Assembly (NCBI GenBank): GCA_947034885.2
Contig: OX344752.2
Coordinates: forward strand, 20,173,386 to 20,237,385
Direction: 5' to 3'
DNA length: 64,000 nucleotides
Source: Thuidium tamariscinum
Lineage: Eukaryota; Streptophyta; Bryopsida; Hypnales; Thuidiaceae
The notes beneath the pieces are model-generated. The model saw only the letters and a list, made by a program, of their open reading frames with translations. It had not been told where the DNA came from and searched no databases. Positions 25,542 through 62,460 of the stretch are shown here, in pieces; position 1 is the first letter of the stretch; each line of letters begins with the position of its first letter. Made by a program: the position numbers and the translations under genes.

Positions 25542-26277
25542 TTAACCCCTTTAGGATGTTGTACGTAGGAATGGCCTTTTGAACCAATATTTGTCAATTT
25601 GAGTCCTTACATATGAGATTTTTTTTCTAGCACAATCTTTTTGCTGAAAATCCTACCAAAATCTCAAAGCAACAATGCATTCCTAGGCTATCTTAGAAGA
25701 AAGTGGATGTTGAACAATCATTTTTTACCATTGCAAGTGTATTTAGAAGTTGCAACTGAATACTTCTATTGTATGAGCAATGCTAATATCCTTTAGGGGT
25801 TACTTTTGTGCAAGTGTAGCGTTGCAATCTTGACTTTCTATAGTATTGAGAGCTCTTGAAAATGAGCCTCAAATACACTAGATCTTGGAAAAAAAATCAT
25901 AGTTAAAATTCACTTACAAAAATTGTAGAATAGATTTTGAGAAGCCATAATTTGATTAGGGTTGTGCATGTTAGACCCTTTCACCTCATATTTTTTTGGT
26001 CACCAACTTTTCAGATTTGACTTGTGAAAAGAGGATAGAAAGACTTCACATTATTTTTGCAGTTTTAACACCTTCATGGTCAAACATTATAATCTTTCAC
26101 TCTACAAGTGATATTGTTGTATTTTCTTTTCCTTTACAATCTCTAACATGTCTAGTTTGAATTTGTACGGTTACAATTCAAAAAAAATTGATACAACTAA
26201 TTGAAATGTTGGCATTTTGTTCAACTTAGAGCAAATTCTAAGAAGCTCAAAACAGGCCTTGGACATTTAGGGGTTAA
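25542..26277. mobile_element. TTAA-bounded element, 736 bp (copy F)
   Basis: The left end reads TTAACCCCTTTAGGATG and the reverse complement of the right end reads TTAACCCCTAAATGTCC. Both ends then share a GGCCT-TTTTGA word. TTAA is present at both extremities. A related internal end (CCTTTAGGGGTTAC) sits at about 25789-25802. No transposase is seen. Confidence 0.5.
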
Positions 26278-29769: not shown

Positions 29770-30181
29770 ATTAGGTTCAAATTATTTGCCATAGATGAAT
29801 ATTACATATTGAAGGTGGATGTCAAACCCTCACTTTGGAACTTATTCGGTTAGGTACAGCGTGAGGGTTGTGATTTGGGTCCGTAACTGGATTTAGTTTG
29901 TACAGCATTCTTCTGTTTGTTTGCTTTGTCGTATTCACTGTGTCCTTGTCTATTCGGTGCATTTGAAGTGCAGCATTGTCTGTTCGACAAATGGTCTGCA
30001 CGCATAGGTGCATCCAAGTATGTGTAAAGTTGATTCAGCATAGACTTCCACGTTATGAGGTCTGGTCTCACGAAGAATGTATTGACGAGTCAGGTCGGCG
30101 AAGGGCAATTTGGGAAGAAGAAACACTTTTTTCGCTAATGTAGGAGAGTCAAAGCAAACTGTTGGAGGTAGCGGTGGCAGT

Positions 30182-33100: not shown

Positions 33101-33202
33101 AAGTTGATCTCCAAAGTGACTAGAAAAGAAATTGTGGTTAGGGATGCAAATCGCTTTCATCACTTCAAAGATGGCTTGTGTTCTTGTAAAGATTATTGGT
33201 GA
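30182..33202 (+). CDS. PLS-class PPR protein with E1, E2 and DYW domains (RNA-editing factor)
   Basis: A single 1006-aa frame runs from the ATG at 30182; the open frame starts earlier but only with TTG, and a stop lies at 30083. It has 23 PPR motifs: seven L-S-P triplets, then L2 and S2, followed by E1, E2 and a DYW domain at about residues 872-1006. That domain has the PG box, the HSE zinc/catalytic motif at 938-940, CSDCH at 966-970, a CSC near the end and the terminal DYW. The deaminase therefore looks complete. Such proteins bind organelle RNA and convert a specific C to U. Triplets are very similar to each other (AYAESG.GEEAY.LFLQM), pointing to recent module duplication. A targeting peptide is weak from this start, so a 5' exon may exist. 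Confidence 0.93.
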   Translation: MLMRTAETTTEAIGALKNRLRQGSATDSRMYVEVLKRCLKQKDLTAVKQVHECVIDNGMQQNIYVANNLLSAYIGCGRLEAACRVFDELVEKDVISWNIVLGGYARHGRAKDAMEVFSRMHREGVQPDAVTYLSILKACGSPSALKWGEEVHACIRHGGFDSDVRVGTALLRMYAKCGNITEARKTFDELSSRNVISWNVMIGAYAESGFGEEAYGLLLQMRREGFEPDAVTYTSILNACASAGSLDWVKEVHGHVLEAGLESDLRLANSLVHMYATCGSMDDARLVFDRMEERNVVTWNVIIGAYAENGRGEEAYRLFLRMVREGFMPDAITYLNILNACAHSDSFEWVKEVHIHAREAGFELDLRVGSALVNMYAKSGSFDDAREVFDRMKDRDVVTWTVMIGGLAQHGCGREAYELFLRMQKEGFAPTVATYMSILNASASAGALEWVKEVHRNARERGFEFDMRVCNSLVHMYAKCGSIDDARLVFDRMDDRNAVTWNMIISAYAESACGEKAYRLYLQMIREGFKPDAITYMSILNASAGAGSLNWVKDVHNRAREAGFEADVRVANALVHMYAKCGSMDDARLVFDRIKERDVVTWNVIIGAYAESDFGEEAYQLFLQSIRDGLKPDAVSYVCALNACAGDGALERVKEVHSHAREAGFALDVRVGNALVHTYAKCGSIDDARLVFDEMEERDIVTWTVMIGGFAQHGYGSEALEAFRNMNAAGVKPDGYSFVAVLSACSHAGLVDEGRRLFLDMSLDYGIVPSVLHWNCMADILGRAGLLEEAKLLIDNMPVEPDGATWRAVLSACRSYGNVELGELAAKERFKLEPEDASTYVLLSNIYAAAEKWEEASLVRTMMQERGIRKEPGRSWIEVDHKIHAFVGGDTSHPQSKEIYAELSRLTEKIKAEGYLPDTRLVLHDIAEKDKEFSLCSHSEKLAIAYGLICSPSSKSIRVYKNLRVCSDCHTATKLISKVTRKEIVVRDANRFHHFKDGLCSCKDYW

Positions 33203-38400: not shown

Positions 38401-41400
38401 TGGGTATTGTACTCTATGCTGGCAGGACCCAATGATACCGCCACGTGGGAGGCGATGGGGCTTCCTGTAGCCGCCTCCTTTTGAACGTTCCAGCATCAAA
38501 TGAACTGGCCGGGCACACGAGGTTTGAATTTCGGATTAGTACATCTCCAAAATCAACATGTACACTCGTTGAAGAACGGATTTTAGAACATCTACCAAAA
38601 AAACCTTGCAACTTTTACTTGCAGTATCCAAATGACATGTTCATTGGACCTCCTTTTACTTGCAAACAATGAGAAAACATAAAATTTGACCAATTTAATA
38701 TTAATAAATAGGCATAGTAGCAATAAGTGGTGGTTTGGAGATATCTATTTTAGATATTTTTTACAGGTGAATCACAAAAGTCTCTTTTATATTGTTTTAA
38801 GAACTATATAGTTGAAACATGTGTCTGAGCTCTTTTCTTTTAATTTATAGGTGAATTACTTTTATGACTTTTATATTTGAATGTAAGAAAGTTGGTGTTT
38901 TTAAATATGGCTTTTAGGTACCAAATTACTGAAAACCATTGTGTCTCATTGAAAAGTTGTAGGTAATGGGGGAAATTAGTAAAGTAGAAGTGTCTTTTGC
39001 TAATCAATTGATGTTGATTTGAAAAGCATATCTTTTTTTATATGTACAATATACTAGTCTCTTCTAAACTTTTTTTTGGATTTTTAGGGGTTTTTTTAAG
39101 AAAAATTCATATGTTGAGAAAAACTTAATTTCTTTCTTAGATGGAAGTATTCAAAAACTATGGAGTGTGAGTATGGTAAAATTATTTTTGGAATAAGAAT
39201 CATGATCTTATAGGGTTCATTGCATTAACATGCTTAAGTATCCATGCTATACTAGGGATGGTGTGTTCACATTGTTTGAAAGGGCCTTAAGAATTTTTTT
39301 CCTGAATAAATGTACATTTTTGTCTTTTTTCCCTTCTTAGTAGGTGAACAATCATATTAGCCTTAAAAAAAAGGGAATACATATGATATTTAAAGCTTAT
39401 AATATTGATATTCAACACTTTTTTTCCTATGTTGTTGGAACCTTCGGAATTATGTCATCAAGGTATGTCTATAACTAAAATTGAATTCATCCCTATATAA
39501 GAAGAGAAGTACCTAGAGTGAGAATATAGTTGGAGGTAAGAAACAATGGTAAAGTCTTCACTTCGTAGCTCTGCCTACCTATTTCATGTACCTTCCAAAA
39601 ACTTTCAAAAATATGATGTTTGAAGTCAATTACAATTTTTAGTACCTGAGCACCAATATTTTGGGTATGGGATAAATTATTGAAGATTTCTAATTTGGAA
39701 TGTACATACAAGTATAAGGATGTGGAATAATTACTTCAATTATATTTTTGTTGTATGAATGCAATATTTAATCTTGACTTACATTATATTACACCCAATT
39801 ATATTGAAGTACTTAGAAATTTTTTTAAATCTTCTAATCTAATAGAATAATTAAATACTACAATTGCTTGTACTATGTATACCTTGGTATTTTGAACTAT
39901 TAATGTATTTTATAACAAAACTTAACCCCTAAAGCCTTGAGGTGCGTTTTTTGGTATTATAAATTTTTTGGGCAACTCACTACGAATGGAGTTTTTATTT
40001 TTTTTCACTGAAATTTTTACACAAGATATGCCCAAGGAGTAGCTTTAAGGCCCAACAATTTTCGTAACTTTTGACTTTGTGGTTAAGAAGTTATGGCATG
40101 ATGTGTTGTTTTCTTTACTCGGAGGGCAGCCCGGGCAGCTCAAAAAACTTCTTAAATTTTTTTTTCAAAAGTGAAATTTCAAATTGATTCTTTAGGTTTT
40201 TACAAACATGGGAAGCTTTGTTTCATCCCATTTGGATTAAGGAGTCAAAAGTTATGAGCAATTTTAGTTTGCGGGTAGGTATGTTTATAGTTGTCAAATA
40301 ATTCTAGTTTGTACAAACCAATTACTTCATAAGTACGCCAACAATGTAATAGCATGTAGGAATGCAAAAGCATGTTACTTGTCATCTGATATTGTAATAT
40401 TGTACTAGTAGTGCATATATCAAAAAAAAAAAGTGTACATATAAGACAATCATTTGTTTTATAGTGTGAATTGTATATGGATATGAAAAAATTAGACATG
40501 TAAGTTTTATATAGAAGATAGCACAACTATAAAATCCACATGAATGAATTTATAAAAAATCATATGATATTAATTGATATCTTTATATGTAGATATATGA
40601 TCATCCTAAATACTATAATGAAGGTAAATAGCCCCACATCAAATTCCCTCTTAACTAAGGTATATACTTTACATTACAAGGACTCAAGGAGTGATCTCCT
40701 TAGAATTTAGACCAATCCATCCAATGCCCTATCCATTGGAAAAAAAATTCAACCATTGGACGAGGTATCATGTAGATGGTCGGGTGGACTTAGACTAATT
40801 TGTCTGATGCCTCATCCACTAGCCAAAGAAATTTTTTTCAGCCAACAAATGTGGCATTGGGTAGAGGAGTGAACAAATAAGTGGATGGTCGAACAGTAGG
40901 TGGACAAATGAGAAGATGAGTGGGTAGATGGGCCGCCCACCCACCCTTCAAATGCCGTCTGCTATTTCCACTGCATCAAAACATCCAAATTTTGGACATG
41001 ATTTTGCTGGAGTAGTTTGAATTTGTCAATCCTGATGCATGTTGTTGTGATTATTCTTTGCCTTTCATAATTGAACTAAATTCATGTTTGAACAAAAAAA
41101 TGTTATATACTATGCTAATGCTTTATAAAGAGGGTTGTTGCAAAGGATACTAGTATGGCATCTTGAAATTTTCTTGTTGTTTTAGATATTTGAAAGTATT
41201 TTTTTAGAAGACTAAAGTGACCAACACATTCATTAGGTAAGCATTTGATAAACTTCCATAATTGTGAACATTATAATTAATGCATATGAAACTATATAGC
41301 AGTGCCATGTTTCTACAATGACAATGACAATGACTTGTAGATACAACATGCCATGCATAAGGATTTCATGGAAATCACCCTTCAATTCTCTTTAGAAAAG

Positions 41401-44640: not shown

Positions 44641-45497
44641 TTAACCCCTTAAGGACTAACATGGTTTTGACAATGAAGGTTTTCAATGAACTCTAGCACT
44701 TTGATATTTTTTTGCACATAGATGTGAATAAATATTTTAATTTTAACCATACAAAAGTAAATATTAATTTATCTAGTACGCATGGAATTAATTTTAGGAA
44801 ATTTGGACTGTTAGATCTTTAGATTATAACAATCTTGGATGATTAACTTCATAGGCCTAAACTGCAAGTTTTGGAGAAAAAAATTAATAAAAAGATGAAT
44901 AAATATTTTTTAAACACACCCCCTCCAAAAAACAATTTGGAATCTAAAGCAAATTTTATATTTTTTTATTTGAAAATTTGAAGAGAAAAAAATTCTCAAA
45001 TTTGTACACATGTTCAAATATAAAGACTAGAAAGTCAATTCCAAGCAAATTGGGTCCTACAAAATTCTTAAAAAATTTGAAATCATTTTAATTATTTTGT
45101 GTCATTAATTACACTTGATTGAACCTTTTATTAAAAAAAATTGTAAAAAACAAGAATTTCAAATTCTTTTTCAAATTCTTTTTTTTTTATGGATTATAGA
45201 ATATAATTGTGTAAAAAAATGTTTTTTTTTCCATCTCTACTCTTCTTTTCATGAAAAAACATTATACTTGCTCTCTTTTCCGACTAGACTACATTCTCAA
45301 CTACATTTCGTAAATGAATTTTTAACTACTTCTGAGATTCAAAATTAGAGAATTAGAAAATGAAAAAAGTATGTAAGCTTCTTTTTGTACAAGATCTTAG
45401 TTCCTAAAATATTGAGATTTGTTTCACCCTTCCAAGAAATTGCCATTGAAAACTTTAGAGAGCACACATTGGGTCCTCTTAGTCCTTGAGGGGTTAA
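44641..45497. mobile_element. TTAA-bounded element, 857 bp (copy A)
   Basis: Left TTAACCCCTTAAGGACTAA; reverse complement of the right end TTAACCCCTCAAGGACTAA, 18 of 19 identical. TTAA is the outermost shared 4-mer on both sides and flanks outside it differ. The interior is AT-rich with no transposase frame. Confidence 0.65.
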
Positions 45498-45751
45498 GAG
45501 CAACAATCTTCTTCATATTGAGTCTATAATTAGCTTTGAAATGAATAATTATGAGATGGTCCTTAAATTGACCTCTATAGCCATTGAGTGAATTGAGGAT
45601 AAAGTGTTATTTATTGCAAATCTAATCATTTTTGTTAGTTTTCTCATATCTCTTCATGATTTGCAAGGGAACAAAATTTGGAAGACAAATAGGTGTCCAC
45701 AATTTAAATCTTTGAAAACTCATAAGTAATTCAATAATGCTTCAAAAAATA

Positions 45752-45907
45752 CACTAGAAGAAAATTGTATTAGAAATCTGTGAAACACGTGGGCTGAAAT
45801 TCGTTGAGTTCCACGTTTCCAATGCAGATTTTTGCGCTGGAAACGTGGAACTCAATGAATTTCAGCCCAAGCGTTTCGCAGATTTCTAACGCAGTTTTCT
45901 TTTAGTG
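45752..45907. mobile_element. CACTA-type hairpin MITE, 156 bp
   Basis: Begins CACTAGAAGAAAAT and ends ATTTTCTT-like TTTTCTTTTAGTG, with ATA duplicated at both flanks (45749-45751 and 45908-45910), the 3-bp duplication expected for CACTA elements. Almost the whole length folds back, with arms containing GAAATCTG, GGGCTGAAATTC and TTCCACGTTTCCA. Confidence 0.75.
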
Positions 45908-45918
45908 ATATGAAATTA

Positions 45919-46030
45919 CACTACAAGAGAAAGGGATGTTTTGAAAACCTCCTAAAAGGTCATTACTTATAATCTTATGTTTAGAACTATACTTAAAAAC
46001 TCACTCAAAACACCCCTTTCTCTTGTAGTG
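45919..46030. mobile_element. CACTA-type MITE, 112 bp
   Basis: Starts CACTACAAGAGAAAGGG and ends CCCTTTCTCTTGTAGTG, with TGTTTTGA/TCAAAACA continuing the inverted repeat. No clear 3-bp target duplication. It lies 11 bp from the neighbouring hairpin MITE. Confidence 0.7.
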
Positions 46031-46128
46031 ATCACTTGTATTACATGTATGTTGTATCTACTTTCCTTTGTTTGAAAAATGTGATAAAAATCTTTCCATC
46101 CATAGTAGCCTATAAAAATGGCATACTA

Positions 46129-47847
46129 ACCCTTCATCTGTCAAGGCCTACAGCCTTTTTGGGTGTAAAAACATCCTTGCTTTTCAAGCATTATAAGTAC
46201 ATATCACTAAGATATAAAAATCTCAATTCTACAATCTTGTAGTGTACATGCTGTAGATGATGTGGATCAAATTTGGAGTCATTTGGCTCTATAGATGGCA
46301 TGATCAGAATGTTTTAGTCTTGAAAAAAGATGCTAAATTTTTTCTAAAAACACATTTGAAGGTGAAATTTGATTTCTAAACCTATTCAAATGAAAAAACT
46401 TTAAACCAATAAATGCTTTGAACTTAACATACAAATACATTGGTGAAAAAAAACGTCATTCAATTGACTCATTGTGTCTGCAAAATGACCTTGAAATAGC
46501 AAAAAATAACAATAGAGGGAGTGAAAAATACATCTATGATTGTACTTCCTTCTAATGAAATGATTCTTAGTCACTCACAACTTCTTGGATTGATCTAAAT
46601 TTTAGCCATACAAACTAGATTCAAATGTTCAACTTTTTCAAGAAAAAAATTAGAGACGGACAATGTATGAAGAAGAAGCAAGCTACCAAAGTTCATTGTA
46701 ATCCAAAAATGTCTAGTTTTTTTAACTTTGAATTGCTCCCAAACATTCAAAACAACTTGGATTGCCATAAAATTTTGACCACAATAACTAGACTTTTAGA
46801 AGAACACAAGCCAACAATTTTTTTTTATATTGAAAACAAACATTGGATGAAGGAGATACAAGCCCCTAAAGCTATGGCCATCAACTACAATTTGGTGAAG
46901 GGTCGTTGCAAGAAACACTTACCGGTTTTGGCTCAAAATGGCTCAAAATCAATGAGTCCTGTGAGTCCTATGACCCTTTGAAATAAATTTTTTTCAAATT
47001 GAAAAAAATATGGATAATTTGAAGAGCAATGAGAATATTATGTCTCTTGAAATTCAGACCTAAGAATTTTTTTCTCTAAATGTTATAGACAATGGAAAAT
47101 ACAATGAAAATAGCTCTTTTTTCACTAATTTGGTAAAAATAGTAAAAAAATTCAAAAAATGAAAATGAAAAATACTTTTTTTCTTCAAGTAAAGGTCTTT
47201 CTTTTACAACAAATTTCATCTTTGGAAAAAATAAATTCTATTCTCTACACTTGCGCAAAGTCAGCCACTTTGACGACATGTGGAGGTTGAACAGTATAGT
47301 ATTTTCAAAAAATCTCTTCGTGGTATTGTGTAACTTTAGGTGAGGTCCTTGCATGCCAATTTTCAGCTCAAAATTTGCATTTTTGGGTCAAAAATAGGAC
47401 TAAAAACCCCCAAAATGGCCAAGGTAGACAGCCAATCGGGGGCAGTTTAAAAATAGTAAAGTAATTTTGAAAAAATTGAAAAAATTACACAACATATAAA
47501 ACTTTTGTGTGCATCTTCATGCCAAATTTCAAGTTGATGGAAAAAACTATGCAAAAGTTATGAGCAAAAAACTACCTGTTGGAGGTCAAGGGGACAAAAA
47601 ATAGGACAAGTGTTTCTTGCAATCACCCTGAACCCAAATTGAACCTATAAACTTCAATTGGCTTCCAAAAAATTTGTATTGCTTAGATTAATTTGAAATT
47701 TTTTCCATACAAACTAGACTAGTATATGCAACTTTACCAACAAGTTTTATTGAATTTGGACATTGAATGCAAAAGTTATAGCACTTTGAATTGGACTTCT
47801 AGACTATGTAAGGCTACTTTTGAGCCCCTTGGGTGTTGAGGGGTTAA
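46129..47847. mobile_element. Possible diverged member of the TTAA family
   Basis: The right end is clear: GTTGAGGGGTTAA at 47835-47847. A weak left partner, CTAACCCTTCATCTG, is at 46130. The interior shares the phrase AAGTTATGAGCA with DNA near 40250, which follows the lone TTAA end at 39922. A 118-aa frame at 46625-46981 is low-complexity and not recognised. Confidence 0.25.
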
Positions 47848-49147
47848 AGTGTCACTTTAGAGTAGATTACCTTAATGAAGAGCACACTCATGGGTCTAAC
47901 TTCACATTAAAAAAGAATTGAACCCGTCATAGGACTTTGAGTTTCCTTATTGATGTTAGTACTAAAATTGAAGTGAGTATAAGGTTGCCCACATCCTCAT
48001 TCCTACCACCATGAAGAATCACAAAAGTTGATAGTGGACACATGGCACATGGAAATTTGTGGGAAGCATGTGCTAGCCATCTTCCATGACTAAACCAAGA
48101 AACTATGAGGGTGGATTGAATAATGGAGATGGATTGAGTAACCACGACAAGTTTTTGAGCTCATCATGCAAATCTTGGCCCAATTGTGAGTCGAGAAGGC
48201 TCTCTCCCAAGGAAAATTTTTGCACTCCGAAGCGGCCCTTTCTTGAGTTCAATTTCTTCCTAACGGCTTGTTGATAAGACCCTTCATCTGTTTCTATGGC
48301 TGTTTTTCCTGGTTAGTTCCGAGTTGGTTCCATCTTCCGACTTTTTGGTACAAGCCTGCAAGCCATCTATCACCGATTACCGGTACACAGGATCTGGGCT
48401 CGATCATTGCGTTCTTCCGGAAAAACTCCTTCAGCCATACAAAAAAAATTGGAAAATGAGAAACAATAAATACATTGCAAATGAATGCAATGAAGATCCC
48501 TCCTCACAAGCAAAGAACTAAAGGTGATGGTGAAATCTGTAACGAAAATCGAAAGAGGAACTCCCAAGCAGTGTGCCAAGAGGATACGAAGGTTGTGCCT
48601 GTACCTATTGACTGAGCCCTGTTACAAACAGCAACTCATCTCTTCTAATGCACTTAATTGGACTCCAATTTGCAAGTTGGGTGTAAGCATGACTTGACTC
48701 TATGGCTGTCGCTACTGAAGTTCGAAGGGATATGGCATTGTCTACTATCCCTTCCACAGTGGTCTAAAATCTTCGTCTACAACATTTGAGTGATAGAAAT
48801 TGAATCCCAAGAGAGTTTGGTTCTTGTACCCAAAGTGATCTTTCCATGACATCTGTACTGATCCTTCAGTGAAAGTACTATCGGATGAAATGCTAAAATT
48901 GACGGAAAGACTATCCGTATTATCTTCTCCCATAAAAACACAGTACCATGCATGCATGCATGCATTCCTGACAAGGGGTAACTACTGAAACTACAATCTC
49001 CTCAGATTGAAACTGTGCAAATAATAGCAGCCACGTTCAAGAGGGGAAAAACAAAACGACACCAGAGAGAAGCAGAATCATGGTTAAGGGCTTAAGACTT
49101 AAAACTTAAGCAGAGTCTCTTCCCAATATTACGCAGTGCAGCAGGAG
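47848..49147. other. Spacer, partly gene-like composition
   Basis: GC rises from about 48.0 kb. A 62-aa rightward frame (48086-48274, beginning MTKPRNYEGG) has no recognisable domain. A (ATGC)n microsatellite lies at about 48946-48965. It may be the 3' UTR of the small leftward gene that follows. Confidence 0.3.
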
Positions 49148-49525
49148 TTAAAAAGGCTGTCGATTGATCCTTCTCGAATGCTCCATAGTCAACTGCTTCC
49201 CAGTCGACATCAAATTGTGTAACGTCCCGAAACGTGCTTTATCAAACTCTTTCTGTATACTCCAACTGCAAACAAACCAGAGAGTACCAGATATGGACGA
49301 CCACTACGAAATCAGAGTAAAATTTTATGCACATTTACTGTACCGGTTGGATCAGATTCAACACTTTGTTGTCAAAATTCGATTTCCACACCACATTTCA
49401 AGAGGTTACAACCAACCACAAGAACCACAAAAAGATGACAGTTAATTAACATCACGTTAAGCCCGACAAGAGTGTACTCACCAACTCACATTCCTAAAGA
49501 GAATTGGCCCATTCAATGTCACCAT
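49148..49525 (-). CDS. Possible 53-aa protein, two exons, unknown function
   Basis: Exon 1 (49525-49482) starts ATGGTG in a GCGATGG context and encodes MVTLNGPILFRNVSC. Its donor is GAGTTG|GTGAGT. Exon 2 (49265-49148) follows GTTTGCAG and encodes WSIQKEFDKARFGTLHNLM, then STGKQLTMEHSRRINRQPF and TAA. Phase agrees across the 216-nt intron. The peptide reads like a real protein (charged, well mixed) but I do not recognise it. It was found by eye, so chance joining of two short frames remains possible. It is divergent from the nuclease gene. Confidence 0.35.
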
Positions 49526-50702
49526 CGCTCATATTTCCCTGCTCTTCCTCCTCCTATGGCTTCGTCACCTGCGCAGGGATCATTTCATCTACTAAGCCTG
49601 TCGTCTCTACCACTCTTTCCATGCACCATTTCAGCACAACAAGACTCGATTCAGTCTCTAAAATCGCCATGAAGAACGTTTACAAGAGAAAAAATCTCCC
49701 AGGACCTAAAACCTAAGTCGTGATAATCGAGGATTAAGCCCTAACAGCTGAAAATTTGAAAAATTCAATGCTGTGTTCTTTCCGAGCAGTAAAAGGACGG
49801 AAACCGACTTGCAGAGATCAGATTAAACCCGGAAACAATGAACAAAACTGTAGCTAATTAGCGTAAACCCTATTTCTCTGAAACGCCTAAAATCCATGGC
49901 AGCGCAAAGCATTAGTATTTGGACATTCAGAGCTGACAATGTAGCGCTTCGATTGACTTAAGACCACATTTCCAGCATGCTCCAAATTGCCTTAAACAAG
50001 ATTATGAAAAAAAACCCAGAGAGTTGTAACCTCCCATCACCAACAAAATTACGTTGCCACACGTTCACGGCAAAACCTCACAATTCACATGATTGTGCTA
50101 CACAGGCTGTCTAATGCTGATAATCTCTCGAGAACACGCAACTTCTGAATACGAAATTTAGCAGTCATCACTAAACGAGGGCGTGTTAAGAGAAAACTAA
50201 TCAGATTTCCATCGCATTCCATAACTGTGGTCCTTTCCAGACCCAATGATCCTCGCAGAGACAATTCGATCAGTAGGCTTGTCCTTCAGACCAGATGCTA
50301 CGAAACATCAAACAGAGGGCATAGACCACACCCTAATTGAAAACCCAAACACGTCCTTGAATTAATGTCCAAACAACGGCACCTCACCTGTTTTCCAACT
50401 GCACCCCACCAAAAGTTCTACTGCCTTGCACGTGACTCCCAGAGTGTACTGCAGTACCCGTTTTCTAGAAGACCCCCTCAAGATTGTACGTCAGAGGAAT
50501 GATTGGAACGACGTGTGCCAGTTTTCTTGGGTGGGAAATCCCAACTGCCACAGTTGCAGGTACCACCTACAAGCAGGTTGACCAGATACAGTCGTGGTAC
50601 TATATGTTTCTCTCCAGGCCAGGTTTCTCCGTCAGAATACTCACCGTTGTATTTGTTTTTGGTACACAGCAAAATTTGTAAAGGAGGAAGAAGATAGAAA
50701 CA
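49526..50702. promoter_or_regulatory. Divergent upstream region of the nuclease gene
   Basis: About 1.2 kb of moderate GC with no convincing frame. A telo-box-like TAAACCCTAT is at 49863. It should hold promoters for the rightward nuclease gene and for any leftward gene. Confidence 0.4.
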
Positions 50703-53700
50703 ATGGCGACTGCTGCCGCATGGGGAGTGGCGCTTTTGCTGCTCCGATTTTCTGTCAAACAAGCTGTGGCTTGGGGAGCTGAAGGCCACCAGATCACCTG
50801 TTTGATAGCTGAGGTGAATTCTTATGAACTATGTGGCCGTTGTAAGGTGGATACACCCAAAAGCGCCCTGTTCCTAAAAGCGCCATCTACTGTGCACATA
50901 CATTTTCGAAATCAGTCATGTACCCAGACTGTAGATGGCGCTTTCAGAAACAGACTTTGACTGTTAATAACTTTTGCATACGGTATCCAAATCCTACGTT
51001 CTTTGGTGCGTTGGAACATGCTTTCACTTGCCAACAAGACTACATAAAAATTTGAACTAATTCGTAGCAGGAACTAGGCTCAGTATGAATAAGTGGCGCT
51101 TTTGGGTGTACCTACCTTACTTACTTTGGCTATTCACGAAATGGAATGCCCTCACTGACTCATTATTCATGATGGCCTTGAAGTCATTCACTAGAAGAGA
51201 GCAATGACGTCATTGGAAATCGGATTTTTTTATCATGGTTTTGTTGGTGTTTTATGTGTGATTTGGTAAAAGATAGAGTCTGTACTTCCTTGCTATTCAT
51301 AGCATACTCAAAGAGCTGATTCTTGAGACTTGGAAAAGGAGTCTTGAATCTTTTTGTGCACAATCTCAAGGACATTCGGTGTAGGACCAAAAGTTGCAGG
51401 AAGAAGAGTATTGGTCTTTCAATGAGCAATATGCATGCTCTCTGCAATGAATTTCAAAATTTTGAGTCTTTTTCGGGGGGTGGAAGGCCATCTATATCTT
51501 AAAATCTTGAATTTTCAAAGTTTGGTTGAGGACATTTATATGTTGTAATGTAGACTTTGGTTTGGGCTCTCAATTAAACAAACTCTCAAGTCATGCATGT
51601 ATTTCAAACAATATTTGGAGTTCTTTCTAATGATGGGACTTGGTGGTATAGCCTTTGTTGTTTGAGCCCGCAGAACAAGCAGTGCGCTCTTTGCTTCCGA
51701 AATCCTCTAATGGCAATCTAGCCAACTTGTGCAATTGGCCCGATGAGGTGCGTTGGATGTCCAAGTACAAATGGACACGGCCACTTCATTGGGTTAATAC
51801 TCCAAACGAAGAATGCAGCTATGACTACAATCGTAAGACTCTAATAAACCATCTTTTGGACAATCAGTTTGTTTGCTTATCTACTAGAAATAATGAAATC
51901 ACATTCAACAAGCTATTGAGTTCTATTTTGCAATTGACCACTCTCAATGTTTACCTATTTGTGTTGTAATGCAGGGGATTGCCATGATTCTTTGGGAAGA
52001 AAGGACATATGTGTTGCCGGAGCTATTAACAAGTTTGCACAACAATTATTAGACTACAGCAAACCCCACAATGCTAAAAATCGTATGTGCCATCTTCTTA
52101 CCACAAATGAGTTCTCAATCACAACCAAATGTATTTGCAACATATACAAGAAAATGGAGAGAATTTTGCAATATCTTTAGAATTTAGGTCAATTATGTAT
52201 ATATTATGCAATCACTTAACCCATTAAGGACCATGGTTGATTTCAGGGGTGGACAGTGTAGTCTTTGGTCAAATTGGCTGAATGTTCACGTTTGAAGCAT
52301 AACAAAGGTTTAGCAGGATCTGACCGTACAGATGAATGCAATTTGAATACAATATACTAAAGTTGTTTTATTTGGGGCAAGCAATGTTGCCTTCTAAATT
52401 ATTATAACACATCTTTGTTTCATTTTCAGCCCCCCAATCCTCACAAATTTCAAGTCTAAGACCACATGATTGGTCAGATTGGCTTGATTTCTGTTCCATT
52501 GGATTGAGCTTAGAATTCTTCTCATCCATCTTGACCAAACCACAACACAATTCATAACCAATCTTCCCCTACCAATAGGAATGGGGCATAATCAACCCAA
52601 AAGTGGTCGACCAGTCCTTAATGGGTTAAATACCACATGGATTCATGTTTTGGGGATGGCAGAAAACATGACTGAGGCTCTCCTATTTCTTGCCCATTTC
52701 ATAGGTGACATCCACCAGGTACATGATTGATTTTGAAACAAAATCACGAGCATATAATTTTAGAATATCAATTCTCAGCTTTTTCAAAGTAGCCCCAAGT
52801 TATGGACATTGCTTTTAATAACATAAGATGATAGTTACACTTGTAGCAAAGTAGTAACAAGGCCCAAGTATTCCTTACTACAAAGTATCAAATATGTAGT
52901 AAGGTAGGTACACCCAAAAGTGCCATGTTCCTAAAAGTGCCATCCACAACAGATATACATTTCCAAAATCAATCATGTTCACAAATTGTAGATGGTACTT
53001 TTAGAAATAGACTTTGACCATTAATAACTTTTGTATATGGTATCCAAATCCTACATTTTTTAGTTGTTGGAACATGCTTTTACTTTCCAAGAAGACTACA
53101 TGAAAATTTGAACAAGCTAATAATAGTAACTAGGCACAATATGAATAAGTGGCTTTTTTGGGTGTACCCACCTTAAACAACATTTGGGTGAATGATTCAT
53201 GATGTAAGCTTTCAACACATATAGGTATTAAGGCATTAATTAATTATTGTTAGAAGAAGGTATATAAAGAGACATTTGCCATTCATTTTCTCTCTTTCAT
53301 TTAGAAAGAATACTTGTTTGATTTCTTTACCCAAACCCACAATTATAAGTGTTGTAAATATTCTAGAGCATTGCATTGTCATGCAACAAGTAACACACCT
53401 CTCCTACCTTCAACACACTCAAGGTTAATTAACTACTATACCAATCTAAGTACAAAAAAACTGCAATATTGGTAGGATAGACATCAAATGATTGCCATGA
53501 GAATAATCATGACACCAATTTTACTAATCAGAATTCCAATTCATTTATTGAGTGTTAACTCATTAAGAACAAGGTCGATAACTGCAAATGAATATTTGGC
53601 TGAAAAATGACATGTTTTCATCAACAGCTAAAGTGACCACTAAGAAAACCTATCATTTTCAGCCAGAGTCATCAACTAGTCATCGACCTAATTCTTAATA

Positions 53701-56700
53701 GGTTAAATACAACCCATTCTAACTTTCATTAGATTCATTATGTTCATGGCTTTGTGATTGGCAGCCATTGCATATTGGATTCACATCTGATGCAGGGGGC
53801 AACAATGTGCCGGTACAATGATACAAAAGAAAAAGTGACCTGCACCATGTATGTCCTTTGCCAAACCATCTGTCAAAATTTTAATACCCGAAACAAAAAG
53901 TAATAAATTATTTGAATTGCTTGTTGCCTCAAAATGAGATATAAAAAGACGTTGTAAATGGCTTTGGCTTTTCTTCAGTACTAAATTTCAGCACAAAAAA
54001 TTGAGTGATAAAATGTTCCAAAGTTGAAAGAAAGAATAAGAGCTCACTGGCAATTGATCTTCATTTGATAGCTGATGGTGTATAGTACATTGTGTGCTTC
54101 AGGTGTGGGATGTAGAGTTTGTAGCAAAAGCATTGAAAGAAAACTACAACTCAAATCCAACAGCCATGGCTGATAGCATCCTCAACAACATTACCGTAAG
54201 AAAACTCACTTACATATTTGTACTATCAAATGTCTCAGCCTTCATGGCTAAAATAGTAGAACCATGGTAGGTACACCCAAAAGCGCCACTTATTCAAACT
54301 GAACCTAGTTCTTGCTATTAATTAGTTCAAATTTTGATGTAGTCTTGTTGGCAAGTGAAAGCATGTTCCAAAGAACGCAAGATTTGGATACCGTATGCAA
54401 AAGTTATTAACAGTCAAAGTCTGTTTCTGAAAGCACCATCTACAGTCTGTGAACATGACTGATTTCGGAAATGTATGTACACTGTAGATGGCGCTTTTAG
54501 GAATAGGGCACTTTTGGGTGTACCTACCTTATGTCCAATAGATTCTTCATTCACATTGATCACACTGAGTTATTCTTCTACTCTTGTAAGGTAGGACCAA
54601 GGTTCTAAAAGCATTCACTATCTAAAATGGACCACCTTTTCAAGTGTACACTATTTGTACATTTTGTGTGTTTGTAGCCTTCAACAATGTGCACATAGTG
54701 TATATTTTAGGAGGTAGGCAATTTTAGAGTCCTATTCCATTTCAACTTCAAGATTTCATAACTAATTTACAAAACTTCAAAAAAAATGAAACAATCTGCA
54801 TTAGATGCTAATTTTACTTGTCTTTCAAGGGAAATTTATTGAAAGATATTTCAAGAAGTTTTTCCTCCCAAAAATTTAGTCTCAACTTTTATATGAGCTA
54901 TTTATAGACCTCCTACCTTACTATCAATTTGACACATCCTATTTAGAATTCATTAGAAGAAAATTAGAGTCTAGAGATGCCTAATTTAAAATTGGCTAAT
55001 ATCACAAAAGATATTCTAGAATTTAGAGAAACTATGTGAAGCATTAGGTGATGACATCTGATTTTGGAGATGTTGGCACAAGTCCTTGAAAATTAAACAA
55101 TAAAAAACAATGGCATCATTTGTGTGTCCCATAGGTCTTATTAAATAAGCATTGTTGCCAAATGGTTGTACTGCTTGACAAGACTTTTCAAATGGTAATA
55201 GTCATCCCAATATTAGTTATAATAGACTATTTTATTCAACATCTTCATTACTTGAAGTAGCAAGGTACAAACATGAGTTCTATTTGTATGTGATAGGAAC
55301 ACACATTTGTTGCAACATAGGTTAGGCATGAGTGCATTGTTGCCAACTTGGCTTGTACCACAAACATAGTACTAGGCAAGTTAAAACCCCAACTCTTTTC
55401 TAATGTGTATGAATGTATGTTTTGCCTTAAAGGTAGGATCACTCAAAACATAGTAGACTTCATTTGAAACCAACATTATGTATCTTTAGTTTATTTACAT
55501 TAAGAAAAAATTTCATTGAATTTTCTATATTTGTATCCTTATGGAAAGTGAAAATAGACTTCTTATTCAAGAATCCACTTTGCACTTGCAGGACAATTGG
55601 GCAAGAGAGGTTGATGGTTGGGGTCTTTGCCGCAATCACAAATTTGCTTGTCCTAATACGTAAGTTACACTCTACAAGAATCTACAAGGTCAATATTTTT
55701 AATTCTATAATTTAGTTGAGGAATGTTTGTCATAAAATAGTATATTTATGATATTGTACTTCAAAAAGATTCAAAGTAGTACATACAACCAATTTTTAAA
55801 AGAATGATTTATCCACAAAAGAATTTTCACATCGTAAATGTCCATGTACAAAACTTTCATTAGAAATTGTCAAAACACAATTTTATTAACTATACATAGA
55901 GGGTTGTTATTATATGAGCTTAGAAGTGTGAGCCCATGAGCCTAACATACTGTACACCTATGATATAAGTATTTATATTATAGTAATTTTTTATGATAAT
56001 AGTACATATATGCTATAAATACCTATATTATAAATATTGAAGTTATAAACACCTTCAATGTTTACATGATTTCTACTTATATATATGCTCAAGGCTCACA
56101 TGCTTACACTTTTGTACTCACATACTAAGACCATTGCTATATATAAAAGAAAACAATAAGACAAATCAAAATAAAACAAGAGACAAAAAAATCTATCATT
56201 AATTTTTCTAAAGTAATGTGCATGGCACTCAATAAAAGGCCAATGCCTATTGTCCTCCTATAGTTTCAATACCTACTACCTATTATGACCTCAAAACTAT
56301 GCATAGAAAGAATTTGGATATGATTTCTAAGTGTTTAGGTAACACATTAAAAATGTTATGACAATGACTTGGAAATATGTATAGATATGCCTCAGAGGGT
56401 GTTGGCTTAGCTTGTGCATGGGCATACAAGGGTGCTACCGCTGGAAGTGCACTTGGAGGTGAGGTTGAGAAAATGGGTTCTTTTTAAATTCACATTTTCA
56501 ATATATTCATAGAGTTTGTCATGTTGCATGTTTGTTTGATTGGACAACTTTTAAGTTGTTGAGTTATGAAAACATGTTTTCAAAAAGAGTCTATTTTTCT
56601 TCTCAAATATTACAATTATAGAGTTTTGAGTGCACTCTTCACATTGTACTAAGTACTACTTAAGAAAAGTCAATCCATACATTCTTGCAAATATCTTGGA

Positions 56701-56965
56701 AAAATCTAATCCATATTATTCCACAACTAAATTATTAAACTTAACAAATAGTAATTCTACACACTTTTGAGATCATCTTCAAAACCTAATGTTGTTGTTT
56801 TTGGTTGTAGATGCCTACTATATCTCAAGGTTGCCAATAGTTGAAAGAAGATTAGCACAAGGAGGTGTGAGACTTGCAGCAATTCTCAATAGCATCTTTG
56901 ATTCCAATGCCTCGCAATACAAAAATCTAGATGGTCTTTATACAAGTCTCATAGATGCACCTTAG
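50703..56965 (+). CDS. S1/P1-type nuclease (ENDO/BFN1 family), nine exons, one in-frame TGA
   Basis: Exons: 50703-50813, 51652-51832, 51975-52082, 52663-52718, 53765-53848, 54103-54195, 55592-55659, 56385-56458, 56811-56965. They sum to 930 nt (309 codons plus stop), near the ~300 aa of plant S1/P1 nucleases, and every phase matches at GT-AG introns. A signal peptide (residues 1-23) precedes the mature Trp of WGAEGH. The family's zinc ligands are visible: W1 and H6 there, D in CNWPDEVR (mature 45), H in RPLHWVN (mature 60), HFIGDIHQPLH, and LHHVWD. The end is RLPIVERRLAQGGVRLAAIL. These secreted or vacuolar zinc enzymes degrade RNA and single-stranded DNA in senescence and cell death. Codon 171 (53819-53821) is TGA where relatives have Trp, before the last zinc ligands, so the product as read is truncated. 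Confidence 0.88.
50843..51119 (+). mobile_element. 277-bp TIR element in nuclease intron 1 (M1)
   Basis: Left TAAGGTGGATACACCCAAAA; reverse complement of the right end TAAGGTAGGTACACCCAAAA. An inner inverted repeat (AAAAGCGCCATCTAC with GTAGATGGCGCTTT) lies near the left third. A TA dinucleotide ends each side, compatible with a Tc1/mariner-type target duplication. No coding capacity. Confidence 0.8.
52216..52629. mobile_element. TTAA-bounded element, 414 bp, in nuclease intron 3 (copy B)
   Basis: Left TTAACCCATTAAGGACC; reverse complement of the right end TTAACCCATTAAGGACTGG followed by TCGACCAC. TTAA is at both extremities. It lies wholly within the intron 52083-52662 and ends 33 nt before exon 4. 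Confidence 0.65.
52900..53175 (+). mobile_element. 276-bp TIR element in nuclease intron 4 (M2)
   Basis: Same family and orientation as M1, with matching ends (TAAGGTAGGTACACCC and GGGTGTACCCACCTTA). Positions that are CG in M1 are largely TG or CA here (for example AAAAGTGCC for AAAAGCGCC), so it looks older. Confidence 0.8.
53555..53706. mobile_element. TTAA-bounded element, 152 bp, in nuclease intron 4 (copy C)
   Basis: Left TTAACTCATTAAGAACAAGG; reverse complement of the right end TTAACCTATTAAGAATTAGG. Both then read TCGAT. TTAA is at both ends. The GGTCGA word is shared with copy B. Confidence 0.6.
54263..54531 (-). mobile_element. ~269-bp TIR element in nuclease intron 6 (M3)
   Basis: Reverse orientation of the M1 interior (GTAGTCTTGTTGGCAAGTG against CACTTGCCAACAAGACTAC in M1). 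Ends GGTAGGTACACCCAAAAG and CTTTTGGGTGTACCTACC. CG dinucleotides are largely kept, so it is close in age to M1. Confidence 0.8.
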
Positions 56966-58226
56966 TTGTGATGAATGTCTAATATCTAGCCAATCTAGCA
57001 ATTTAATTAGCCTTGAAAAGTAGAGCTAGGACAAATTTGATTGACAAATCATCAACTCTTTATAAAAAAAAAGACTAAGATCACATATTAGTTATGTGAT
57101 CTATCCAACCAACAAGACTATTTGAATAATATACATTATATGCATTCATTAAAGGTATTTTTTTCAATAGAATGAATCAATAAATTTCTTACTCTAACTT
57201 AAGCTTGGTATTGTATTTTATTAGAAATTTTGGCAAAAAATATTATTATTTTTAGGATATTGTTAAGTATCAACTTTTAATAAGTTGGAACCTCCAAAGA
57301 AACATATGCAAACCAATGTAAATAAATATTAGACGATTTACATGCTTAAGATGCTTGCAACCTATAATATTTATTGACATGGTGTCAACAATTGTATATA
57401 CTATTCTACTCCAACACTAATTCACTCATTTTATTATTTATAAATCTGAGTATTTTTTTGATATTTGAAGAAAAATATCTAGTATAAACCAAAAGATTTT
57501 GGTCACTATTGTTTACTTCTTAGACACTTGAGAAAAAATGAAAAAAATTCTTTTGTGATAATGTAGAAAAGTGAAGATGAAAGAGTAGAAAAAACTTAAG
57601 CTCATTTGACTACGTAAATTGAAAGATGATAACATCCAAAGTTTTGCAAAATATTTTTTTGGCCTTAGACAACGAGGCCAATAGATTTTTAGCTTTCTTA
57701 TCTTGAGTTTTATGAACTACACACAAATGTTGTTTTAATGATAGCATACTATAACATGTAGCATACATGTGTGCCAGTTTTCAATGGAAAAAATTAGACC
57801 TATAATACATTCAAAAAAATCCTACATTGAAAATGAAAACCAAAAATTGACAATGTGCTAACAATTAGTCAAATGCTTTGATCTTGCTTAGCAATATATT
57901 TATAGCAACATTTTATAAGAAGCATGTTATAGCTACATTAGAAATTCTTAACTTCATATTGTAAATTATAAAAATAATAAAATGGATTCCTTTCACGAAG
58001 GCATTCTATACAAGTAAAAAAAATTCACATTCTACTCTCAATTATCGATGTGCAAGATACAAAACAACACAAGACAAGTTTTGGATAACAAGACTTAATA
58101 TTAAAGTTAAGAAGTACAAAATTGAAATTGGATTCAAGAGCTAAGATCAAAGAGATGTATTAACAAGACTCAAGAATACTTCAGCCTTAACCTCTATATA
58201 TACAACTATTTAAGAGGTTCTCTCAA
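56966..58226. other. AT-rich spacer after the nuclease gene
   Basis: Contains the nuclease 3' UTR; no further gene is visible. Confidence 0.4.
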
Positions 58227-58386
58227 AACTCTATGGAAGCTTCTAAAACTCCATGGAAGCTTTCTAAACACTATAGAAGCTCTTAGAATACTGTAGAAAT
58301 TTTTTGAATACTATGGAAGCTATTGGAACACTTTAGAAGCTTTTAGAACACTCTAGAAGCTTTTGGAACACTTTGGAAGCTTAAGC
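58227..58386 (+). repeat. 20-bp minisatellite, eight copies
   Basis: Units begin at 58227, 58247, 58267, 58287, 58307, 58327, 58347 and 58367, exactly 20 bp apart, with consensus AACACTWTAGAAGCTTTTRG. Copies differ by one to several bases. Confidence 0.9.
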
Positions 58387-59873
58387 AAGATGCTTGAAAA
58401 CTATTGAGATATCTAGAAGGTTCTACAATGTCCATGATACTCTCATATAGATATAAAAAATTTAGCATTCAATATTTATGTAATTTTGAAAATGTTGCAT
58501 CACATTAAATTTCAAGTCCTACAAATATTTAAGTAACTCTTCACAACCTTTTTACTAAGTCCACCTACAAACTTTCAAAATAAAAGTCATAAAGGTCCTT
58601 CTAAGAGCTTCCACCTCTCAACACTCTATACAACTTTCTAAGGGTTTTTTAATATATCTACAAAGATCCTCTAATTGGGCCTCTAGTATCCACAAAGATC
58701 CTCTCAAATTCATTGAAACTCTTTGATTCAAGACCCTCACTAAAGCCTTGATGAAGATTCTATATAAGATTTTCACTTATTCTTATAAAATAAATTATTT
58801 TTTGGTGTTTGTTTCCATCCTTTATCCATAGGCAACTATTGCAATTCAAATCTCTAATTTTAGAGGACCCACAATATTTGATTTGAACACCCAATTGGAA
58901 TGAACAATTTATTGCACCAAGACTGAGCAAGTGCACATATTGTGTAGAAGATTCATTTATGCAAAATTGACTTTAAAGATACCTATCTAAGGAACCACTT
59001 GGGCCTTTAAGGAACCACTTGGGCCTTTTATATTAAACTCAAACTATACATTATAATGCTAAAGAGAAACCACCATTAAAATATTTGTTGTAACAATCAT
59101 CAAGGTATTGCAACAAATAGAAAAATAAATTTTATAGACAAAGATTCTGAAATAACATGCTAAATTTGGCCTACTATACTAATCATATATTTAAAAAAAT
59201 GTAGTAAGCAAAACTCTTTCCTATGTTTAACTTCTTTCAAATTTCTTCCGTATGCGATGGTATGAAATCAATCATAATACCTAACATTGTGACCTTGGTG
59301 ACAAGTCTAAGACCTATGTTACCATGTATTTAAATCACTATGCTGACACATGGCACAATATTTGAATATAGAAATCTTTGACCCAAGTTTTTAATGCCTT
59401 GATGCCTAAAGCCTTATTTGAATTTTATTGAATTTAATTAAAATCAGACTAAAAATTGAGGTTTTGAAATATATTATTTATTTATATTAAATTAAAAACA
59501 TATTAGTTTAAATTAGAGGTGCTACGGATCACATACTATTAGCAAGAAATCATTTATGAATCAAAAGGTAATAATATTTGGTATTAAAATTGGAAAAAGT
59601 GATTTGAATTTTTTCAATCCATTTTTTATGTGTCAAATATAAAATTGAGCTCATAAAAAATATAACGCTAAAAGATATAACAAGCATATCTATAATCAAT
59701 CACGGTTTTTCAAAATATACTCTAAAATTAACTTCTAGTGTGATTTTTCTCTCAAGATCTAATGTATTTGTATGTCATCTTCAATAATGAAAAAATAAAT
59801 AAAGATTTGCAATAAATATCCTTACACAAAAGCTTTTATAGAAAAATCATGAACAATTTTTTAGGGGTCGATT
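58387..59873. other. AT-rich spacer
   Basis: No gene seen. A 20-bp direct duplication (TAAGGAACCACTTGGGCCTT) lies at 58988-59027. Confidence 0.4.
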
Positions 59874-62460
59874 TTAACCCCTAAAGGACCAATGTGTTTA
59901 TAGGCCCAAAACAACTTCAAAATACTCTCCTAAAGCAAGGTCAAAGTCTTTCATAATATTTATTTATTTAATACTTTCAACCATTAGTAGTAGGGCTTTT
60001 TTTGGCTTTCTAGTGCCAAATTGCATCAAAAAAATAATTTGGCTAAAAAACACTACAAAAATTGTCAAAAAACTTGACTGAAATCACCCGACAACTTTGA
60101 AATATAAAAAAAATATTACATGAAATTGCCTAATTGTGGATGAAAACCTTACTATACATCCAATAAGTGGATGAATGTTGTACTTTGGAGCACCACTATA
60201 ACACTTTATATCACCACTTCTTCAAATATGAAAAAACAACTAGTTAACTGTAGAATCTTTTGGTTAATATGCTCAAGTACATTGTCCAAAAATTTAGAAT
60301 GAATATCTTCACCAATCACAAGTTTGATGTGCCTAAACTTCAAAGTGCCAAATGTAGTTTTAAAATAGAAATATGATCTAAACAATTATCTTTTAAAATA
60401 GTTTTGCTCTTCTTTTTCCAAGAATGAACTATCTATAAGTAGGTATAGTGTGGAAAGTACTCACAAATACTATTAGAATCAAGGCAATTTTATCAACCAA
60501 CATATTATCATCATAAGATCAAAAATTGACAACAAACTCATATGTCTTCAAAGATCCTTAATTTTTGCAATTTGAAAATCTATCAAGAAGATTCTTACAA
60601 AATAAAAACTTGAGCAATACAATATGAGGAGAAGAAGATTGAAGCAAGAAAGGAAATAAAGAGCAAGAGGAAGTGTTGGATGAACACTCCTAGTTGGGCT
60701 TGTCATTAACAAAGAACTTTATGAATTAAGATGGATGAAAATAACTTAGTATTATCTTATAGCAATTACTTAAAAGTAATTATTAGTTTGTCATACCAAT
60801 AGTAAGGGATATTATTTGATAGATTAGGAAACTAATATCCTATAGTAGGAATCCAACACATAATTAGGAAATTTTTGGAACTCTTTTAAATTCAAGAACA
60901 TAACTTATTTACAAAAAAACTTCAAATCTATTATATTTCACAATATATCTAAATTGTAGTTAAGAGATCTCTTTTTGTTCTTTTCACTTATTTTATAGGC
61001 ACTTCATCTGGTAGTCATCTCTACTTAGAAATTTTCAAATTTGGTACTCAATGACTACTTCAAATATACACATCTATAAGAAGATTGTCACTAGGCCATT
61101 TCTTCTTTATTTTGCAATTGAGTAAGAATTGTTGTTGATGAATTGCTAGGATTTGGTAACTCTTGCAAGTTGTATACTTCTAATGTTGAACCAATTGTTG
61201 AAGAAGTCAAATGTGATATAGAATGGTTTAAATACACCACCTTTTCTAGCCTTTAAATGAAGGGCAAAGAGTCTTAGCTTTCTGTTCAAGTTTCAACTTA
61301 TTCTTTCCAATCTTTGGCTCCAAATTGTAGATCCTAGTCATTCTGAGTTCTCTACTTACTTCAAGTTTATACACTTCTACATCTTTTGAATCATTTGACT
61401 CTTTGCAAGAAGAATTTGGGAAGCTTCTAGTGAAACAAAGAGAATAATAATTTTTCCACATTCACTTTGTGCCAATATCAATATAGTACTAATGACTATA
61501 GAGGGAATCCCTCAAAAACTTTATGTGGCTTCATTGTGAATTCCACTAAAATTTCTTGTGACTTCATTGGGAATCTTGCCAAAATTTAACTAAGAGCATC
61601 CTCAATCTTCCCTCTAAAGGGCCACGGCAACGGTAACTTTTGCAAGGTTCCTAGAATGGCATCACGAACTTGCCCCAATGCTAACAACACTTCTCCTGTT
61701 ACCTTCCCACACATGTCATTTTTTGACTCTTACATGGCAAGAATAGTTCCTTTGTTGTGCCCTTCAAGCTCGTCTGCATTTCTTGATCAATGAAATCATG
61801 GTGACACCATAGTCTCAAAGGGCACAAAAGGGAAAGAACTTTTCCAATGACAAAGAACTTCAACTTTGTCAGAGCTACACCTTCTGCCACCATGTGAAGA
61901 ACCTCCTGCCACCACATTGTTGCAGAGCCGTTTAGGGATGCAAATAATGTGCTTGCATTGAGGTGCTTGAAACATAAAGAGACTCGGTGAAAAAAGGGGA
62001 CGTCATAAGAGTCTGTACATACCGTTGCAATGTCTCTATATTGAGTGGAAGATTGAGGATGCTCTTATATCTTCATTGAAAATTCCACCAAAACTTTGCA
62101 TATGTCTCATAATTACTACCATAAGGATTCATTTGTTTTCTCTAAGCCAGTAAGTCTTGCCCAACATGCACATCCACTAGTTGATATAAAAAACAAATAA
62201 CAATAATCTTTGTTTCCCTAAAAAATAGTTTTTACACTTCAAAAAAAAATTTGGTGCCAAATTTGACATTGAAGTTGAAAAAAACATTCTAATTTTTGCA
62301 ATATTTGTTGAAATGACACAAAGCAATGCTTTACACGTAGATTATAATGATTAGCATCCATCCTAAAAAATTCATACAAAAATTCCAAATATTAAGTCAA
62401 ATTAGCCTTCTCAAGTTCTCAAAGAGCCCAAAGTGGGTTCTTTGGTCCTTTAGGGGTTAA
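59874..62460. mobile_element. TTAA-bounded element, 2587 bp (copy D)
   Basis: Left end TTAACCCCTAAAGGACCAA and reverse complement of the right end TTAACCCCTAAAGGACCAA are identical over 19 bases including TTAA. The length is in the range of a full piggyBac-type transposon, but I find no long frame; leftward frames at 61246-61461 and 61699-61917 are short and unrecognised. It contains a nested TIR element at 61592-62066. Confidence 0.7.
61592..62066. mobile_element. 475-bp element with 20-bp perfect TIRs, nested in copy D
   Basis: Left AAGAGCATCCTCAATCTTCC; the right end is its exact reverse complement. TA sits just outside/at both ends. GC is higher than the surrounding DNA. The 72-aa leftward frame at 61699-61917 lies inside and has no known domain. 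Confidence 0.75.

Follow-up and report, generated by a model that had tools for sequence, protein, structure and literature searches.

PiggyBac, a main genome-engineering tool, is usually described from animals. Here we analyse a 64,000-nt stretch of the moss Thuidium tamariscinum (contig C4:20173386-20237385; hereafter the window) containing TTAA-bounded inverted-repeat elements, which are almost certainly non-autonomous members of the piggyBac superfamily, similar to miniature inverted-repeat transposable elements (MITEs), in a land plant. Genome-wide searches covered the 363-Mb, 19-contig assembly. Beyond the initial CCC, the terminal inverted repeat (TIR) differs from that of piggyBac of the moth Trichoplusia ni. 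The moss system resembles T. ni piggyBac and the superfamily (PDB 6x67/6x68; piggyBat 9c0f) in its TTAA target, 4-bp duplication and short CCC-starting TIR, and in a transposase that combines the PF13843 (DDE_Tnp_1_7) domain and its three catalytic aspartates (DDD) with a Cys/His-rich C terminus. It differs from the moth element in its land-plant host, in the long N-terminal extensions of some frames and in the length of the measured elements, about 5.1 kb.

Earlier listings of piggyBac in plants gave it as fragments or as the name of a superfamily; the mechanism considered here is that of an ordinary piggyBac, and the interest lies in the host and the scale. In the excerpts of the openly licensed literature available to us, a 2023 review counts PiggyBac among the seven MITE superfamilies of angiosperms (PMC10004981), a genome table of the fern Ceratopteris lists 1,230 PiggyBac fragments totalling 122 kb (PMC6890710), a grass has a single 75-bp PiggyBac hit (PMC8319324) and a haptophyte alga has autonomous PiggyBac families (PMC5963040). 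The same excerpts state that piggyBac-like elements are present in plants (PMC8086355, which cites Bouallegue 2017; likewise PMC10813416) and describe piggyBac as an introduced tool in plants (PMC10797517, PMC10794571). An earlier note on this DNA had placed the superfamily outside the standard plant repeat catalogues, which, given the angiosperm and fern entries, was right in part. Like the angiosperm MITEs, the moss elements are short, non-coding and assigned to PiggyBac by TIR and duplication, and like the fern fragments they bring the label to a seedless plant; unlike the MITEs as excerpted, one family here is linked by sequence homology at each end to an element of its own genome that encodes a transposase, and unlike the fern fragments there are stop-free frames and near-identical copies. 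Among the listed titles and opening abstract text of that literature, none describes a land-plant piggyBac that carries a transposase and was active recently.

The window contains the following elements, none with an assigned strand; TTAA is counted in the numbers of identical terminal bases.

25542 to 26277 (736 bp): two-ended TTAA/CCCC element; end comparison gives diverged TIRs with 9 consecutive identical terminal bases.
39922 to 40283: truncated copy with a single end, from the non-autonomous piggyBac group CCCCTAAAGGACC, recognized by its identity to genomic elements.
44641 to 45497 (857 bp): two-ended element with the TIR TTAACCCCT(T/C)AAGGACTAA; 18 of 19 terminal bases identical.
52216 to 52629 (414 bp): two-ended element of the TTAACCCATTAAGGAC TIR subfamily, from end comparison and a genome-wide end count; 16 identical terminal bases.
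53555 to 53706 (152 bp): short two-ended element, by end comparison a diverged relative of the CCCATTAAGGACC group; its TIRs are a diverged pair reading CTCATTAAGAACAAGGTCGAT and CCTATTAAGAATTAGGTCGAT beyond TTAA.
59874 to 62460 (2587 bp): two-ended element without a transposase frame, from end comparison; 19 identical terminal bases.
61591 to 62067, within the preceding element: repeat of about 480 bp whose ends read as the inverted pair TAAGAGCATCCTCAATCTTCC, with copies elsewhere in the genome at 79-83% identity; having inverted ends of its own, it is probably a distinct element nested here.

All five two-ended copies described in the earlier note were read in the sequence and their ends compared, confirming TTAA at both extremities: ten of ten ends start TTAAC, nine of them with TTAACC and one with TTAACT. 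The CCC start proposed for the family holds in four of the five, which have TTAA and a CCC-type TIR at both ends; in 53555-53706 the first bases after TTAA are CTC and CCT, so that this element fits the piggyBac pattern solely as a diverged copy. The flanks beyond TTAA differ, as had been claimed. Of three supposed lone or weak ends, the one at 39922 belongs to a genuine one-ended copy: several complete elements of the genome match it at 72-79% identity across some 340-365 bp, and three of these matches begin at the TTAA end itself. Those at 26355 and 47847 resemble TTAACCC ends, and neither a partner nor other supporting evidence was found for them. A complete 633-bp element of the genome matches the right part of 25542-26277 (77.7% identity over 332 bp), and a 927-bp member matches the right end of 59874-62460 (75.6% over 86 bp). 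No transposase frame was found in the window, as noted earlier (tblastn with 26 transposase-bearing frames, best E 0.66). Similarity searches for a transposase remnant in the window and in 59874-62460 gave nothing, and locus L015, which seemed to be a longer relative of the 44641 element, has no transposase similarity.

The terminal sequence TTAACCCCTAAAGGACC occurs eight times in the window with up to three mismatches, against 0.21 expected, and none of 100 shuffles reached eight. Genome-wide collection of copies by terminus, as the earlier note had proposed, yielded for this TIR, the commonest, 4772 forward and 4725 reverse ends with at most one mismatch (reversed-pattern control, 0 and 2). 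Exact matches to the inner TIR CCCCTAAAGGACCA numbered 2564 and 2464 (control, 0 and 1), and the second window TIR type, TTAACCCATTAAGGACC, gave 476 and 454 matches with at most one mismatch (control, 1 and 1). The ends are demonstrated, and a chance origin of the matches is rejected on the reversed-pattern and shuffle controls. Facing TTAACCCATTAAGGACC pairs among 100 places listed were recurrent at 583 bp and at 150-152 bp and occurred once at 414 bp, the last two lengths resembling 53555-53706 and 52216-52629 by length alone. From the TTAACCCCTAAAGGACC listing, 20 stretches were sampled, 18 of them picked as facing pairs: 17 of the 18 contained an element of 915-934 bp bounded on each side by TTAA, the other (L058) was a nested pair, and the two remaining stretches (L067 and L068) likewise hold complete elements. 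These copies represent what we call the 931-bp family.

Next, we determined the target-site duplication. In a set of loci, most of them selected by TTAA, 51 of 52 inner TIRs are preceded by TTAA. A less biased sample, the first 100 exact inner TIRs listed and selected without TTAA, has exact TTAA directly before 84. For the non-TTAA copies, partner ends were sought for nine of 14 that were unpaired (four found, five not), and among five such elements with both ends legible, two carry TTAT on each side (C1:3299038, and the facing ends C1:183574 and C1:184358, taken as one element). TTAT at both sides means a duplication of four bases and an element proper that starts with CCCC. Empty sites, which the earlier note had suggested as a source for the duplication, also gave 4 bp. 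At L058, an 849-bp element is nested in another copy, and alignments of relatives to the joined flanks are gap-free at the junction in 18 of 20 cases. An autonomous copy (C2:31544938-31550033) is inserted at GAAGC[TTAA]GCAGG, and a neighbouring repeat unit, 77.8% identical overall and gapless in the 69 bp shown, reads GAAGCCTAAGCAGG. The target duplication of the autonomous elements and of the 931-bp family is therefore 4 bp and of the TTAA type.

This result bears on two other assignments. Sola elements have 4-bp duplications and Tc1/mariner-like elements duplicate TA, which lies at the centre of TTAA; a TA duplication, however, would put an A beside CCCC inside the element, where the TTAT-flanked copies have T, and these TTAT duplications rule out Tc1/mariner. 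PIF/Harbinger (Tourist-like) MITEs with a 3-bp TTA/TAA duplication could mimic TTAA, which contains both triplets, and the excerpted review names Tourist MITEs as a plant group with such a duplication (PMC10004981). With TTAT on both sides of two elements, however, four bases are duplicated, the base beside CCCC lies outside the element, and the duplication is TTAT or TTAA and not TWA.

The transposase genes point the same way. A PF13843 profile search of the genome returned at least 116 matches (116 scored of 659 first-look candidates); all 116 scored above the cut-off, with a best E of 5.7e-80, and many were stop-free; the longest open frames reach 1,214 aa. When one transposase was used as a protein query, at least 108 matches were obtained (105 scored of 789 candidates). 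Transposase matches are present on every contig from C1 to C10, so stray-contig contamination is no explanation for them. PF13843 was identified by hmmscan in four of four transposase proteins (E 2e-63 to 2e-78), lying at residues 381-776 of 875 in a frame with a long N-terminal extension. Compared with the PDB, two transposases matched piggyBac 6x67 (E 9e-25 and 2e-33) and piggyBat 9c0f, with nothing else below E 0.01, and aligned to 6x67 across all three catalytic sites. The three DDD motifs occur together in 21 of 26 frames, a count that includes nine copies of one element and the 99.7% identical loci L034 and L036; the other five are short of one or two motifs, four of them ending earlier and L033 being without the second only. 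Frames that reach the C terminus have, by eye, Cys/His-rich tails with CxxC pairs, in a spacing variant in L038. Together, these searches demonstrate piggyBac transposase genes and leave the Tc1/mariner-like or Sola-like assignment extremely improbable, although no genome-wide search was aimed at other transposase families.

Three autonomous elements were measured, each of about 5.1 kb. One autonomous element is represented by nine copies (L040-L048) that differ by 0-2 substitutions, with no indel, over 3,984 bases and have different flanks in nine of nine cases. Such near-identity at different sites indicates very recent movement and demonstrates recent copying of this family. Two of the nine, measured at full length, span 5,096 bp including both TTAA and end in TTAACCCTGAAACGCC and TTAACCCCTAAACGCC. 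At some loci (L042 at C2:19453329-19457528, L031, L033, L039 and L114), transposase-bearing elements adjoin another piggyBac-type end within about 10 bp or share its TTAA, as in the L042 junction agtcctttaggg|TTAACCCT; the ends of resident elements may be favoured targets. Separately, L030 and L037 have the sequence TTAACCCTAATACGC on the 5′ side of the domain, at a distance of about 435 bp.

To relate the MITEs to these genes, 20 transposase loci were examined for termini, two of which overlap an earlier set of 20. In 16 of the 20, the domain is followed 1.2-1.6 kb downstream by a TTAACCC terminus in the expected orientation; none of the 20 has one in the opposite orientation. A 5,143-bp element on contig C7 (C7:1354927-1360069) has a stop-free 774-aa frame, starts with TTAACCCCTAAATGCCCAAAGTCCCCTCGGGGGAC and ends, read inward, with TTAACCCCTAAGTTCCCAAGGC. 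Its 3′ end is 71.5% identical over 309 bp to end A of the 931-bp consensus (E 6e-40) and its 5′ end is 73% identical over 142 bp to end B (E 3e-18). Over ungapped positions 21-200, the 3′ end and end A match at 130 of 180 positions, compared with a mean of 52 and a maximum of 71 in 1,000 shuffles. A second family, on C5 (875-aa frame), has a 3′ end with 96 matches to the MITE, exceeding every shuffle. Against end A, five 3′ ends of this family (L094/L092, L100 and L102-L104) outscored every one of 1,000 shuffles, and against end B none of the five did; a further member, L105, gave 64 of 180 matches. In a set of 15 stretches, nine, members of this family, had no readable TTAACC[CA] terminus; with up to two mismatches, six of these nine have the subterminal motif described below (L112 at an unrelated distance) and three do not. 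Controls, comprising the 3′ ends of 18 other autonomous elements together with the 5′ end of L040, gave 38-61 matches (L081, 50), and the highest, L088 with 61, was reached by 13 of 1,000 shuffles.

The subterminal motif, AACCGTnGGATC or a near variant, is shared by the MITE, the C7 and C5 families, L081, L088 and L090, where it begins at position 104-107; most other autonomous ends are without it. It is a likely transposase contact. Short near-perfect palindromes also lie beside the TIR, TTGTCCCCTCGGGGGACAA at end B of the 931-bp MITE consensus and GTCCCCTCGGGGGAC at the 5′ end of the C7 element.

The 931-bp family is thus a non-autonomous piggyBac, a MITE that is homologous at each end to a piggyBac element from its own genome. 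Because the C7 element encodes PF13843, a PIF/Harbinger origin is refuted for this family; for the window elements at large it is very improbable. The same homology speaks against Tc1/mariner and Sola. The piggyBac assignment made in the earlier note is upheld by thousands of ends, the 4-bp duplication and PF13843-encoding relatives with the same kind of ends.

Several observations nevertheless weigh against this assignment. The window elements themselves have only short matches to the C7 element, so that what ties them to piggyBac is the TIR, the duplication and further members in the genome. The exact TIR CCCCTAAAGGACCA was found on no autonomous element, and the nearest autonomous TIRs, CCCCTAAATGCCCA, CCCCTAAGTTCCCA and CCCCTAAACGTCCA, are a few positions off; the transposase with the same ends that the earlier note had asked for was therefore found as to the kind of ends and not as to the exact 13-bp TIR. 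A search of the 20 transposase loci for the MITE TIR (up to four mismatches) gave five matches, none at the element's own end. Four of the 20 lack a TTAACCC end in the fetched stretch, one of them having TTAATCC, and most autonomous 3′ ends outside the C7 and C5 families have no subterminal likeness to the MITE. As for the duplication, TTAA is absent before 16 of the 100 first-listed inner TIRs, the four bases there being TTAT in five, ATAA in two, TCAA in two, a TTAA shifted by one C in one, and GTAA, TTAG, TTTA, TGAA, ATAT and TAAA in one each. In three of the five non-TTAA elements with both ends read, one flank is altered and the other is TTAA, which we read as later mutation. The relatives serving as empty sites diverge at the site itself, and one weak flank alignment in the nested-insertion test (69%) is gapped at the junction and uninformative.

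A narrower alternative keeps the window elements as piggyBac MITEs and supposes that their sources are dead, a fossil family, with only CGCC-ended piggyBac families active now. In its favour, pairwise identity among the 17 aligned copies of the 931-bp family ranges from 56 to 99.5%, with a mean of 78%, the termini of the nine near-identical autonomous copies read CCCTGAAACGCC and CCCCTAAACGCC and not CCCCTAAAGGACC, and the missing exact-TIR partner fits as well. The 99.5% pair (L064/L065) has common flanks and is thus probably one duplicated insertion, but the best pair with different flanks is still 98.1% identical, and the closest autonomous relatives have stop-free frames. We consider a fossil origin a serious possibility, with somewhat less than an even chance of being correct.

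The assignment of the window elements to non-autonomous piggyBac allows us to propose how they arose. Autonomous elements, about 5.1 kb in the three measured, encode a DDD transposase, and we suggest that this enzyme recognizes CCC-starting ends, excises the element, probably seamlessly, and inserts it at TTAA, occasionally TTAT, with duplication of the 4 bp. Copies such as the window elements, which have diverged or lost internal sequence while retaining their two ends, would then be moved in trans by the same or a related enzyme, giving rise to thousands of ends. A broader proposal, on which we are evenly divided, is that autonomous piggyBac elements have radiated in mosses, are diverse and still transpose, and would be the first native piggyBac known to be active in a land plant. 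In this view, transposases no more than about 55% identical and the MITEs that they cross-mobilize have in common a fixed subterminal site, AACCGTnGGATCTTGTA, situated 107 bp from the 3′ terminus, and TTAT is an alternative target. If a native plant lineage has stop-free frames and near-identical copies, the superfamily would work unaided in plant nuclei, and would supply plant-adapted transposases and a study case for MITE cross-mobilization and for vertical or horizontal origin. TTAA-flanked MITEs of seedless plants should also not be assigned to Tourist by default.

Other features were observed in the window and the genome. Two copies of an inverted-repeat element of about 280-300 bp (50842-51120 and 52889-53186) have ends like GTAAGGTGGATACACCCAAAAGCGCC and apparently form another MITE family; a similar end opens L069. 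A CACTA-type transposase remnant at 19503-23727 has Transposase_21 (tnp2), DUF4218 and DUF4216 in separate open reading frames (ORFs). An intronless gene at 30110-33202 encodes a 1030-aa PPR-PLS-DYW protein (PF14432) and contains five 303-bp units (30757-32268), 72-77% identical to a reference unit, which suggests internal unit duplication. Tandem arrays lie at 8561-9176 (172-bp units, 97% matches) and 10645-10963 (93-bp units, 93%), and a large imperfect hairpin at 45752-45907 has 75-nt arms, 87% complementary, and a 6-nt loop. Last, the DYW-type PPR gene and a plastid PsaB point by sequence to a land-plant host, most likely a moss. The genes psaA and psaB lie on contig C19 next to trnG, trnfM and an rps14-like ORF, recognized by eye; the best PDB matches of its PsaB are 7ksq, 6l35 and 8htu (1665 bits), which we take to be from Physcomitrium patens, followed by 9lut (1630) and a large group near 1600.

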